DNA of 64,000 bases from Diplonema papillatum (taxonomy: Eukaryota > Euglenozoa > Diplonemea > Diplonemida > Diplonemidae). The stretch spans positions 1 through 64,000 of the forward strand of contig JAPJBO010000984.1 in the NCBI GenBank assembly GCA_030068145.1. The letters are read 5' to 3'. The notes beneath the pieces were generated by a model. That model did not search any database and was not told the DNA's origin. It was given only the letters and a program-made list of their open reading frames with translations. Shown here piece by piece: positions 28,427-33,190 of this stretch; within the stretch, counting starts at the first letter, position 1; every line of letters begins with the position of its first letter. Position numbers and translations under genes: made by a program.

Positions 28427-28941
28427 AGTAGTAGTAGTAGTAGTAGTAGTAGTAGTAGTAGTAGTAGTAGTAGTAGTAGTAGTAGTAGTAGTAGTAGTAG
28501 TAGTAGTAGTAGTAGTAGTAGTAGTAGTAGTAGTAGTAGTAGTAGTAGTAGTAGTAGTAGTAGTAGTAGTAGTAGTAGTAGTAGTAGTAGTAGTAGTAGT
28601 AGTAGTAGTAGTAGTAGTAGTAGTAGTAGTAGTAGTAGTAGTAGTAGTAGTAGTAGTAGTAGTAGTAGTAGTAGTAGTAGTAGTAGTAGTAGTAGTAGTA
28701 GTAGTAGTAGTAGTAGTAGTAGTAGTAGTAGTAGTAGTAGTAGTAGTAGTAGTAGTAGTAGTAGTAGTAGTAGTAGTAGTAGTAGTAGTAGTAGTAGTAG
28801 TAGTAGTAGTAGTAGTAGTAGTAGTAGTAGTAGTAGTAGTAGTAGTAGTAGTAGTAGTAGTAGTAGTAGTAGTAGTAGTAGTAGTAGTAGTAGTAGTAGT
28901 AGTAGTAGTAGTAGTAGTAGTAGTAGTAGTAGTAGTAGTAG
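28427..28941. repeat. (TAG)n array, left of retrotransposon
   Basis: About 515 bp of uninterrupted TAG. With 32420-33190 it forms one array split by the insertion of the element at 28942-32422. Confidence 0.97.
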
Positions 28942-29234
28942 GAATGGTCGCGGTATCTCCTTGCCTGCTGCTCGATACGTCGGGGATTCTGCTGGGTCTC
29001 TTCAAGATAACAACTCAAAACCATTTCAACTAACTCCAGGAAGGTCATGGCAACTCCACGCCTGCTACGTGTATCTTCAAGCTAAGATAAATCCATTTCA
29101 ACTAATCCACTGATGCGCTATCTTCGAGGCCTGTCAAGAGGAAGGAAACATGCACTGAACCTAGCAACAGACTGACTTGCGAACGGGATGAAAGGAGTGG
29201 TCCAGACGTACCAACGCCGACCAAGACGATCACC
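28942..29234 (-). repeat. split direct repeat a, outer copy
   Basis: Identical over nearly its whole length to 29365-29657 (offset 423). It starts GAATGGTCGCGGTATCTCC immediately after TAG. Confidence 0.93.
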
Positions 29235-29253
29235 CGGGGGCAAGGGTGGGTGG

Positions 29254-29364
29254 GAATTTGTTTAACGTTTTAACTAGCTAAGGTTGACCTCCTGTTGGAG
29301 TGGTTCACATTGGTTCCGAGCACTGACGGCAATTCAATGCGCCAATTCCCTCAGTAAACTGCAG
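29254..29364 (-). repeat. split direct repeat b, inner copy
   Basis: Matches 32312-32422 (offset 3058) and ends CCCTCAGTAAACTGCAG directly against repeat a. Confidence 0.93.
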
Positions 29365-29652
29365 GAATGGTCGCGGTATCTCCTTGCCTGCTGCTCGATA
29401 CGTCGGGGATTCTGCTGGGTCTCTTCAAGATAACAACTCAAAACCATTTCAACTAACTCCAGGAAGGTCATGGCAACTCCACGCCTGCTACGTGTATCTT
29501 CAAGCTAAGATAAATCCATTTCAACTAATCCACTGATGCGCTATCTTCGAGGCCTGTCAAGAGGAAGGAAACATGCACTGAACCTAGCAACAGACTGACT
29601 TGCGAACGGGATGAAAGGAGTGGTCCAGACGTACCAACGCCGACCAAGACGA

Positions 29653-31330
29653 TCACCTTCCTTCCACCCCGCCGCCAGTAAAGAATGCCACCACCGCCTG
29701 TGTGACGGAAGCAATAGACTTCGGAGTCAGCGACGTCAGGGGCACCCGCGATGGGAGATCTGCAGGGTTCCCTTCGCTCCGCACCCAGCGGACAGAGAGT
29801 GCGCAACCAAGGGTTCGCACCCTGGCAAGACCAGAGACCACCGCGTTGTTCAGGTCTGCGTCTCGCATGCTGAACCCTTTCCGCGCTACTCCCTGCACGG
29901 TGGTATTGTCCACCACAACATCGATCCGTCCACCGGCAAAGGCGTCCGGGATCGACATTGCCGAACGTTCGAAGGCCATGGCCTCTAGAACATTAATGTG
30001 CAGCCTCGATTCCTCGGCTGACCAGGGAGCCCCCAAGATGGTTATCTCCGCCGTACGAGAGTCCACGAGAACACCACCCCATCCCTTCTTGCTCGCATCA
30101 ACGAACACTGTCAACGACGGTACAGGGAGCTTCGTCGGTATTGCCCGTGGCCTCATGACCGCGTCTATCCAACCTTGCAAAGATGAGCGTATGCATGGAG
30201 ACAGGGAAACTTGTTCCGTCGGCATCCTCGTTCCTCGGTTCAACGAGTTCGTTACTCTGCGCATGAATTTCAGCGCAAACCAGAACGAGCCGGGGAAAAT
30301 GCCCGCAATTGCAGATGCGTGGAGCAGCCTGCCCCCCAAGGCTTCGATATCACCGGCAGAAAGCGACGAAGCCTGGAGCTCGTACCGCGTCGTCATCAGC
30401 TTTCTGCAAAGCTTGCTGCTCAGCGAGACCTGCGAGACACTGTGTCGCCAGTCGACCCCGATGAATTCATAACGGGGTGCAGCCGTCCGGGAATCAGCGT
30501 CTTTCCATGTCAGCGAGCAGTCCACCGCCGTCTGGTCCAACCGCCGCGTCGCTGCAAGAACGCACTGCCTTGAGCCAGCGTAGCGAATGTTGTCGACCCA
30601 AACATGGACAACAACTTCACCCTCAACGAGCTCCGGCAACACGAAGTCGGGATGCCCGGCTGACACCGCTGCCAGCGTGTGCATGAGCTCGGGCGCACAT
30701 GCATGGCCCATCGGGAGACGGTTCAACTCCCACCAGCTGCCGTCGTCCGTTGTGAAACGGAACAAGTGTCGAACGGCTTTCGGGATCTCTATTGCGTAGA
30801 ATCCCGTGCGGAAGTCACGAGTAGTCCCGCACTCTTCATGTACTGCGCCCAAGTAGTGGGACACGTGAGCCAACGGAACGGACGCAACATAACCGGCGGC
30901 TTCAGCCGCACGGTTTCCGTCGAGGGTCCAAAGAATGAACCGTTGCCGAAGAGAACCGTCTTTCTCCTCAAGAACCGTGAACGGCACCGAGGCCCAGGGG
31001 CCCGGGCCTGCTGCCCTCGCGGCTATCTCGTACTCCTCGAGCTGCTTCGCGTGACCCAAAACCAGCCTCGACGGGGATCCAAGCGACGGCAGAATGCTGC
31101 TCACGTCCGGGTAAAACGTCTTCCGCCACGTGTCGTCGAAGCGCGAGCGAACGCTTTCGGTCATGCGGGCACGCAGTTTGTTGACGTCCATCGGCTTGAC
31201 TGCGGCCACATGCAAAGGGGACTGGCGCTCTGCCGGCGTCCGAGGCAGCCGAGTCGACCCACCGCGACGCGTCACCGAGTGTGCCCGCAGCGTCCGAAAC
31301 GCCTGATCCGACCGCAGATGGCGACTCAGA
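29653..31330 (-). CDS. reverse transcriptase / RNase H polyprotein (DIRS/VIPER type)
   Basis: The minus-strand frame stays open from 31866, but coding-like sequence for this protein begins near 31330, where the recombinase ends. RT blocks: YAIEIPKAVRHLFRF (motif A region), LPMGHACAPELMHTL (motif B-like) and VVHVWVDNIRY (motif C). In motif C the usual YxDD reads WVDN. RNase H follows with all four acidic sites: TVFVDASKKGWGG, HINVLEAMAFE, DVVVDNTT and SEGNPADLPSR. It copies the element RNA into DNA. The stop lies just inside repeat a. It may be expressed by reinitiation or frameshift from the overlapping recombinase ORF. The VDN is shared by the decayed relative at 63.2-64 kb, so it is a family trait rather than damage. 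Confidence 0.88.
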
Positions 31331-32215
31331 GATGCTTCGTCGCCTTCGCGGTTCCGAGGACCCGGGCGAGGGCGAGCAGATTGCCGCCGTAACGAATCGT
31401 TGTTTCCGAGATCGCTCCTTCCGTCCCACCCGGTTCTTCGTGCTTGGCGAGCCGGTGTACGCTGCACAGCGGGATCGAAACGCCACTCGCAATCAGGTCG
31501 AACAGACGCGTCACTGCACCCCTTTTGATGGAGTGCGCCGAGTAGCGTCGCATCTCGGGGGATCGCGTCCACATCGAATCCAGGCCCGTTGTCGTCAGAG
31601 AACACAGTTCGTCGAAGGGGGCACTCGCCTGGAACATCTCGGCCAGTTCGGGCGTCAGAGGGCCCACTATCACGGCAAACCTCGACGGTTTGAACGGGTT
31701 CCACCGTCGGCCTTTCGGGGTTTGCTCCCAGTCGATCACGATCTCCTCCGGCGCGACACGCAGAAACTGCTTCGAGGACAGGGCGGCAGCCTCGGCCCAC
31801 CTCGACGCCGATTTCCATGCCAGCAGAGTGCACATTTTCACCGCCGGCGCCTGCGATAACGCCCACTGCACAAGTGTCGCTCTGTCCACAGGTACTGCCT
31901 GAGCCCGCGGCACCGCCGCCCCGAGTTGCGCAGTGCCGAAGCCATCATCCGCAATGGCTGGTTCTCTAATCCCATCGCCGCAAATGTCGCTGAAAGCGCC
32001 TTCGCGTACCCCAGGAGGCCCTGAGGACGAACCCCTGTCGCCGCAACAAACAGGCAGGCTGTGTCCGCATTCAGTTGCAGTTGCTGCTGTACGGTCCATG
32101 CACAGAGTCGGCGCCACAGTCTGCGGCGGTCCTGCAGAGTAGAATCCGCCCACATTTGTTGCATCAGAGCCACAAGCCGTGCCTCGGCACCCGTACGCGT
32201 CACTCGAACCTCCAT
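31326..32215 (-). CDS. tyrosine recombinase of the retrotransposon, frameshifted
   Basis: The N-terminal core-binding part (from MEVRVTRTGAEARL at 32215) is in one frame to about 31915. The catalytic part (from AAVPRAQAVPVDRATLVQW) is in the next frame; at CTCGGGGCGG a minus-1 shift would join them. The catalytic half has the first Arg in KSASRWAEAAAL, the H-x-x-K-R box in YSAHSIKRGAV (Lys where many have Arg), a late His in HRLAKHEE and the nucleophile Tyr in TIRYGG. It would integrate the circular DNA copy without target duplication. Whether the shift is a mutation or programmed is open. Confidence 0.8.
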
Positions 32216-32311
32216 CGTACGGCCGGTGGACCAGAAGCTCCGCTTGTCAGCATTCGCTGAACCGCACGACCCACATTCGTCGGTGGCTGTTGCTGCATCA
32301 CTACGGCCCGC

Positions 32312-32422
32312 GAATTTGTTTAACGTTTTAACTAGCTAAGGTTGACCTCCTGTTGGAGTGGTTCACATTGGTTCCGAGCACTGACGGCAATTCAATGCGC
32401 CAATTCCCTCAGTAAACTGCAG
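32312..32422 (-). repeat. split direct repeat b, 5' terminal copy
   Basis: The element's 5' end, abutting (TAG)n at CTGCAG/TAGTAG. Confidence 0.92.
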
Positions 32423-33190
32423 TAGTAGTAGTAGTAGTAGTAGTAGTAGTATTAGTAGTAGTAGTAGTAGTAGTAGTAGTAGTAGTAGTAGTAGTAGTAG
32501 TAGTAGTAGTAGTAGTAGTAGTAGTAGTGTAGTAGTAGTAGTAGTAGTAGTAGTAGTAGTAGTAGTAGTAGTAGTAGTAGTAGTAGTAGTAGTAGTAGTA
32601 GTAGTAGTAGTAGTAGTAGTAGTAGTAGTAGTAGTAGTAGTAGTAGTAGTAGTAGTAAGTAGTAGTAGTAGTAGTAGTAGTAGTAGTAGTGTAGTAGTAG
32701 TAGTAGTAGTAGTAGTGTAGTAGTAGTAGTAGTAGTAGTAGTAGTAGTAGTAGTAGTAGTAGTAGTAGTAGTAGTAGTAGTAGTAGTAGTAGTAGTAGTA
32801 GTAGTAGTAGTAGTATAGTAGTAGTAGTAGTAGTAGTAGTAGTAGTAGTAGTAGTAAAAGTAGTAGTAGTAGTAGTGTAGTAGTAGTAGTAGTAGTAGTA
32901 GTAGTAGTAGTAGTAGTAAGTAGTAGTAGTAGTAGTAGTAGTAGTAGTAGTAGTAGTAGTAGTAGTAGTAGTAGTAGTAGTAGTAGTAGTAGTAGTAGTA
33001 GTAGTAGTAGTAGTAGTAGTAGTAGTAGTAGTAGTAGTAGTAGTAGTAGTAGTAGTAGTAGTAGTAGTAGTAGTAGTAGTAGTAGTAGTAGTAGTAGTAG
33101 TAGTAGTAGTAGTAGTAGTAGTAGTAGTAGTAGTAGTAGTAGTAGTAGTAGTAGTAGTAGTAGTAGTAGTAGTAGTAGTAGTAGTAGTAG
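32420..33190. repeat. (TAG)n array, right of retrotransposon
   Basis: About 770 bp of TAG with about eight single-base phase changes in its first half (for example GTGTAG and TAAG). It is cleaner to the right and runs directly into a Rep-A body. Confidence 0.97.

Follow-up and report, generated by a model that had tools for sequence, protein, structure and literature searches.

Site-specific retrotransposons are generally thought to recognize one sequence. In the marine flagellate Diplonema papillatum, contig C984 (64 kb of sequence, called the window here; the assembly holds 271 Mb in 2910 contigs) carries a retrotransposon, its direct repeats split and one of its genes a putative tyrosine recombinase (YR) gene, lying between two blocks of (TAG)n. 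The locus raises the question of what in the host DNA such an element selects. A first-pass annotation of the window had proposed TAG, or trinucleotide arrays in general, as the target, with recombination at an AG-containing core within TAG. Comparison of the copies across the genome gives a different answer: insertion into tandem arrays at an RG|Y step, in register with the array and without visible target duplication, is strongly supported, and the arrays are of several kinds. If a family chooses arrays that are unrelated in sequence, some property shared by arrays must be readable, and the element would be a natural probe for it.

Copies of the element lie in tandem arrays of six kinds

The element carries two kinds of repeat, a (293 bp) and b (111 bp), and the start of a forms its left end. 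A 19-base pattern from the start of a gave 43 genomic matches at ≤2 mismatches, beyond chance since the reversed control gave none. These places comprise 22 outer left ends, 18 inner or middle copies, and one inner fragment (C148); the remaining places, on C5 and C207 (two mismatches), were left out. Twenty of the 22 outer left ends adjoin an array called by Tandem Repeats Finder (TRF) within 3 bp; L041 lies 4 bp off, and L050, a truncated copy, 18 bp off. The arrays at the left ends are (TAG)n in 10 cases, an 11-bp unit, TCATATGGGGG, in 5, 21-bp units in 2, a 68-bp unit in 1, 71-bp units in 2, and a 31-bp unit in 1. The 71-bp arrays are of the GGTTACA type, and the two elements there lie in opposite orientations. 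No left end (0/22) lies in a telomeric hexamer array. Trinucleotide arrays, the target first proposed, thus account for only 10 of the 22 left ends; 11 lie in, or no more than 4 bp from, five other kinds of array, and the last is separated from an array by 18 bp.

Fifteen right ends are recognizable (13 clean, that of L040 without its last 6 bases, and a fragment, L051), and all 15 adjoin arrays. Among the copies truncated on the right, L044 passes straight into TAG, and L038 and L043 reach TAG 80 bp and 225 bp past their right ends, respectively; L034 has an array of another kind 10 bp away on that side, L041 lies 5 bp from an array with a 10-bp unit, and L042 stops at its contig end. Identity to copy L033 is 99.6 to 100% in the main alignments and about 96%, from gapped matches, in the smallest copies, L039b and L048. 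L031 and L042 are probably a single insertion assembled twice, because they have an internal breakpoint and a flank in common.

As a background, 358 test points were placed in the window outside the element; arrays of ≥100 bp adjoin 31 of them on either side and 12 on both sides. (TAG)20 has 52,656 genomic matches, against 5,050 for the reversed pattern; at 3 bp per overlapping match, and counting perfect units only, (TAG)n amounts to ∼158 kb, near 0.06% of the genome. A 33-mer of the 11-bp unit has 804 genomic matches.

The insertion core is RG|Y, and array register is kept

Copies with both ends define six distinct sites (the slash marks the insertion step): TAG/TAG, GGGGG/TCATAT, GTCGG/TCTG, ATACAG/CTGG, CAAG/TGG, and CCAG/TCTG. 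G stands at position −1 and A or G at position −2 in all six, and T stands at position +1 in five of six. What the sites have in common is RG|Y rather than TAG. The two flanks, joined into a 30-mer, can be read without a break in the adjoining array for 13 of the 14 two-ended copies, exactly in 12 and with one mismatch in L045; the exact 30-mer occurs only once for L032 and twice for L035. The test is blind to gains or losses of whole units, of any multiple of 3 in TAG arrays, and of one G in the 11-bp arrays. Register is kept at these 13 of 14 joined sites and no target duplication is visible, although whole-unit duplications would go unseen. The earlier observation on the outer ends, where the sequence is that of the inner b/a junction, held up, as did the lack of a visible target duplication expected under it.

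That the recombinase recognizes TAG or (C/T)AG, as first proposed, would account for the 10 left ends in (TAG)n and for CAG before the element at two further sites, but GGGGG/TCATAT at five left ends, GTCGG/TCTG at two, and CAAG/TGG at one make this very improbable; the sites in arrays of 11-bp and 21-bp units already refute it. With flanks unrelated to TAG in hand, the TAG-specific form of the proposal fails, and its wider, tandem-array form is strongly supported for the main family. Slightly less probable still is growth of the arrays around the element after insertion. Tandem arrays are generally unstable, but both flanks share unit and register, including at the 21-, 68-, and 71-bp units, a single array holds several families, and (TAG)20 occurs 52,656 times in the genome. 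We rejected array growth on the register of the flanks.

Related families share the insertion phase

Family 2 has the inner junction CTGCAA/GAATTG and the outer ends TAG/GAATTG (L064, L065, and L066), CTGCAA/TAG (L064), and CTGCAA/TCATATGGGGG (L067); one copy outside arrays, L062, starts GGAG/GAATTG. Families 3 (L037), 4 (L048), and 5 (L040, L043, and L049) start TAG/GAATTGG and end CTGCAA/TAG, CTAAAA/TAG, and, in L049, CTAAAG/TAG, respectively; family 5 in L049 failed the register test and was delimited one base too long there. Families 2 to 5 all show the same TAG/TAG phase as the main family. The element end and the target need not match at AG, since family 2 ends CTGCAA yet gives TAG/GAATTG and CTGCAA/TAG at the same TAG/TAG step; we rejected such a requirement.

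Right ends outside the main family adjoin arrays in L064 and L067, and those of families 3, 4, and 5 do so beside the main family in L037, L048, and L049. These counts are biased, as families 3, 4, and 5 were met in the main family's arrays and L064 to L067 were picked for paired b ends. The b-end pattern occurs at 596 places (298 per strand) at ≤2 mismatches; about 100 of the 596 were listed, and 20 stretches were taken. The start of a in family 2 has 66 places in the genome. The window itself holds a short copy of a related family (about 9960 to 10223), resembling the nonautonomous element SIRE; it ends CTGCAA at 10223, outside arrays, and the nearest TRF array lies ∼105 bp further.

Array targeting, selection, and passenger spread as possible explanations

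The sites used suggest that the element seeks repeat arrays as such, not one DNA sequence. RG|Y is far too common to explain near-exclusive array insertion, so a feature that arrays share, be it chromatin, base modification, or DNA structure, would have to bring the integration complex there. We tentatively propose, at somewhat less than even confidence, that what the complex recognizes is repetition in tandem as such or a mark on it, such as base J, array heterochromatin, or array DNA structure. Any array with RG|Y would then be a target, and the insertion of the kinetoplastid element TATE in telomeres would be one instance of a tendency to seek arrays that is general among YR retrotransposons of Euglenozoa. 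The sole reason for listing base J among the candidates is that D. papillatum is said to encode its pathway (PMC10161547).

It seems unlikely that RG|Y is the sole requirement and integration is random in all other respects, with non-array copies lost by selection and the survivors marking safe places. RG|Y is a weak core, and older related copies survive outside arrays, so related families do insert in non-array DNA. However, the identity of 99.6 to 100% among copies in the main alignments leaves little time for selection, and with repeats making up 52% of the genome (PMC10161547), much non-array DNA should tolerate insertions. In addition, (TAG)n holds 10 of the 22 left ends at ∼0.06% of the genome, and older copies outside arrays show the opposite trend. 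Less likely again is that one or a few insertions spread as passengers when arrays with the same unit underwent homologous recombination or gene conversion with one another. The phase and orientation common to all TAG copies would fit such spread, as would the 21-bp array that holds two copies and the apparent double assembly of L031/L042; the six unrelated array kinds, with precise ends in five of them, the internal structures that differ within the same array kind, and the phase shared by several other families would not.

Several observations weigh against our explanation of the element. Other or older related ends (L052 to L063, L068 to L070, and window position 10223) adjoin no array in 14 cases out of 14, and because of this array insertion is no general rule for the related elements. 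L046, which is cut short on the right, has no array in the 2.2 kb examined there; L040, which lacks 6 end bases, fails the register test; and L038 and L041, described below, are not clean recombinase insertions. The array background comes from one 64-kb window only, and the main family's own YR protein matches no integrase profile, only its relatives doing so.

Architecture of the element

The window copy belongs to a young family of 4.74-kb elements and has lost an internal part. It lies on the minus strand, and in coding orientation it reads A1(b)-ORFs-B1(a)-A2(b)-19-bp spacer-B2(a), where ORFs are open reading frames; the repeat order is thus b-ORFs-a-b-a, with 100% identity within each pair. 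To its left on the plus strand is a perfect (TAG)n array of 515 bp (28427 to 28941). The outer a, or B2, the 3′ end in coding orientation (28942 to 29234), starts GAATGG beside TAG, and is followed by the spacer (29235 to 29253; CGGGGGCAAGGGTGGGTGG on the plus strand), which is G-rich with quadruplex-type G runs, the inner b, or A2 (29254 to 29364), and the inner a, or B1 (29365 to 29657). A reverse transcriptase/RNase H (RT/RH) reading frame of 512 amino acids plus stop is open from 29653 to 31191, and a remnant of the YR gene, split over two frames, extends from 31326 to 32335. The terminal b, or A1, the 5′ end in coding orientation (32312 to 32422), ends CTGCAG beside TAG, and the (TAG)n array to its right (32423 to 33192, plus strand) covers about 770 bp and matches at 97%, with few irregular units. 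The outer junctions are TAG/GAATGG and CTGCAG/TAG and the inner junction is CTGCAG/GAATGG, all as the first-pass annotation had written them. Its repeat order and its coordinates for a and b were likewise exact; the spacer and the internal deletion were absent from it. It had also called the element a retrotransposon with split direct repeats and a YR gene, and the sequence supports this; the putative YR gene is intact in full copies and broken in the window copy.

Full copies measure 4741 bp (matched by L033, L036, and L045), against 3481 bp for the window copy, in which the internal deletion lies beside the terminal b, at the inner edge of A1 (about 32312). In L033 the gene order is a gag-like frame (347 codons), assigned as gag-like by position only, a YR frame (399 codons between stops), and RT/RH. 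The window copy is without the gag-like frame and the YR start, and its YR reading shifts frame; RT/RH stays open.

The b/a junction at 29364/29365 lies within an imperfect 18+18-bp dyad with 13 matching pairs and its center 8 bp inside b. Its score was reached by 6 of 2000 shuffles, and that of the corresponding family 2 dyad by 3 of 2000; one outer pair of the dyad differs between the main family and family 2 and is changed on both sides. The spacer between A2 and B2 holds a four-run G motif of the quadruplex type in four of five families (window 29235 to 29254; L064, L048, and L049); L037 fails the strict motif.

Spliced-leader sequence, internal deletions, and structural variants

The copies are informative on three steps of YR retrotransposition about which little is known: the use of a trans-spliced RNA template, the restoration of the 5′ end by split direct repeats, and the possible origin of SIRE-like forms when a recombinase splits a circle. 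L038 breaks off inside A1 and continues with 36 bases exactly complementary to CCAACG...TTTATTG, which we take to be the Diplonema spliced leader (SL); L041 is cut at the same base, and 7 bases of SL sequence follow. CCAACG...TTTATTG has 517 exact matches in the genome. The acceptor implied by L038, CAACAG/GAGGTC, maps to about 32350 inside the window A1. Because L038 ends in the SL, we conclude from its sequence that it derives from a trans-spliced RNA that was reverse-transcribed; L041 probably derives from a trans-spliced RNA as well. Such an RNA loses 72 to 73 nucleotides (nt) of A1, so copies with a full A1 must regain them; A2 can supply them, which would account for the need for an inner A2.

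The genome report gives 110 SL RNA genes with a 39-bp exon for D. papillatum (PMC10161547). Set against about 110 genes, the 517 exact matches suggest that many SL-bearing retrocopies may exist. On C164 (4179 to 4670), coordinates alone place a family 2 start of a (4179) ∼440 bp from an exact SL match (4634 to 4670, opposite strand), perhaps another trans-spliced cDNA.

Nine copies (the window copy, L031, L032, L035, L037, L039a, L039b, L048, and L049) carry internal deletions, and the b that they retain starts no more than a few bases from its inner edge. Spacer bases precede b in L032 alone (1/9), as expected for b copied from A2. Cis-splicing as the cause of these deletions was dropped, as no fitting donor was noticed beside b; no dedicated test was made.

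In L041 (on C307) the outer unit is doubled, giving a-spacer-b-a-spacer-b-a before the ORFs, with one extra tandem spacer-b-a unit; it looks as if a 423-bp mini-circle had been joined at the b/a junction. L047 consists of A2-spacer-B2 alone, a SIRE-like solo copy, and L049, L048, and L039b are without the inner junction (a-ORFs-b). Recombination between b/a junctions would explain all of these forms; for L047 and L049, homologous recombination between the repeats is another possible origin.

Taken as a whole, we consider a model of the following kind reasonably likely. The RNA of a VIPER/TATE-like element would be trans-spliced to the host SL inside A1, as in L038, leaving an RNA without the first 72 to 73 nt of A1. 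The reverse transcriptase would copy this RNA, and the lost end could be restored from the inner A2. The cDNA would then close to a circle, whose B2/A1 junction would equal the inner B1/A2 junction, and the recombinase would join the circle junction to an RG|Y step in host DNA, with the exact element ends and in-register targets as the observed outcome; the feature common to arrays would guide the complex to them. Recombination between the two junctions of one circle may yield an ORF circle and an A2-spacer-B2 mini-circle. Integration of the former would give the a-ORFs-b copies (L049, L048, and L039b), and integration of the latter the solo copy L047.

Encoded proteins

Searches with the RT protein gave 60 matches, and 70 with a profile. 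Among 17 RT relatives, RT_RNaseH matched 14, RVT_1 matched 3, and DNA_pol_viral_C, of interest because VIPER-like elements have an RNase H closest to that of hepadnaviruses, matched 4 (best E value, 0.022); a PDB profile search with the RT relatives gave one RT-type chain (E value, 0.00068). The YR protein search gave 16 matches. The PHROG_1 integrase profile matched 6 of 15 YR relatives (best E value, 2.7e-5), Pfam gave no integrase among the 15 YR sequences, and nothing meaningful matched when a profile of the YR relatives was searched against the PDB. R209, H298, R302, H329, and Y344 are invariant, and K238 nearly so, in the 15 aligned YR sequences; we take these six to be the catalytic residues of the recombinase. 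At the place where we would expect the HxxR motif, all 15 sequences read HSIKRGA, with Lys at the usual second Arg and Arg next to it. All 17 RT sequences read W(I/V)DN at what is presumably the catalytic YxDD position, with D200 and N201 invariant. No kinetoplastid-named protein was among the 60, 16, and 70 matches, in searches that reach only relatives sharing short words.

Comparison with known elements

Judged by its architecture and insertion style, the element is a VIPER/TATE-like YR retrotransposon. DIRS-1-like elements have inverted terminal repeats and an internal complementary region; unlike these, the Diplonema element has direct terminal repeats, and the only inverted pair reported in 27500 to 34000 lies outside it. 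The non-LTR (long terminal repeat) elements SLACS/CRE, R2, and TRAS/SART, found in SL, rDNA, or telomere repeats, likewise occupy tandem repeats; they insert at a single sequence by target-primed reverse transcription, with no recombinase.

TATE, from Leishmania braziliensis and other kinetoplastids, shares with the Diplonema element the order gag-like, YR, RT/RH and the layout A1-ORFs-B1A2B2. It is reported to insert precisely inside the telomeric hexamer array at a G/T step, GGG/TTA (PMC6681497, PMC2696322), which fits the RG|Y core. TATE is described from telomeric hexamers, whereas the Diplonema element uses at least six other array kinds, none of them telomeric hexamers. Reports on target duplication conflict: a flanking TT duplication is given for TATE (PMC2696322), whereas VIPER and TATE are elsewhere said to make none (PMC12278014); none is visible for the Diplonema element. 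VIPER/SIRE of Trypanosoma cruzi has the same gene order and split direct repeats. SIRE, the short nonautonomous form, is described as A2, about 30 bp, and B2 (PMC6681497), the same layout as the solo copy L047 with its 19-bp spacer. The literature passages that cover VIPER give no array target for it. Ngaro elements, for example in Cafeteria burkhardae, resemble the Diplonema element in the layout A1-ORFs-B1A2B2, in solo AB copies, and in a family-specific target preference, and they have a YR, as the Diplonema element probably does; their preferred target is an endogenous virophage (PMC8547959). In Ngaro RT/RH comes before YR, whereas in the Diplonema element YR is upstream of RT/RH.

The D. 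papillatum genome report, in its passages on transposons, gives >60 ORFs that resemble transposon types, TATE included, and describes there no YR element with its ends or targets (PMC10161547). In the open-licence literature, represented mostly by titles and the starts of abstracts, we recognized no diplonemid YR retrotransposon and no array targeting beyond TATE.

Other features of the window

A second VIPER-like RT gene lies on the minus strand at 61974 to 62120 and 63222 to 63873, broken at about residue 340 by 1.1 kb. This insert holds a 16-bp array of 47 units (62176 to 62925), the unit of which resembles, by eye, that of the array at 17901 to 18351. At 15447 to 16586 the window carries a 20-bp unit, AGAATGACTACTGCAGTAGT, repeated perfectly 57 times; the unit holds the palindrome ACTACTGCAGTAGT and echoes the element end CTGCAG/TAG.

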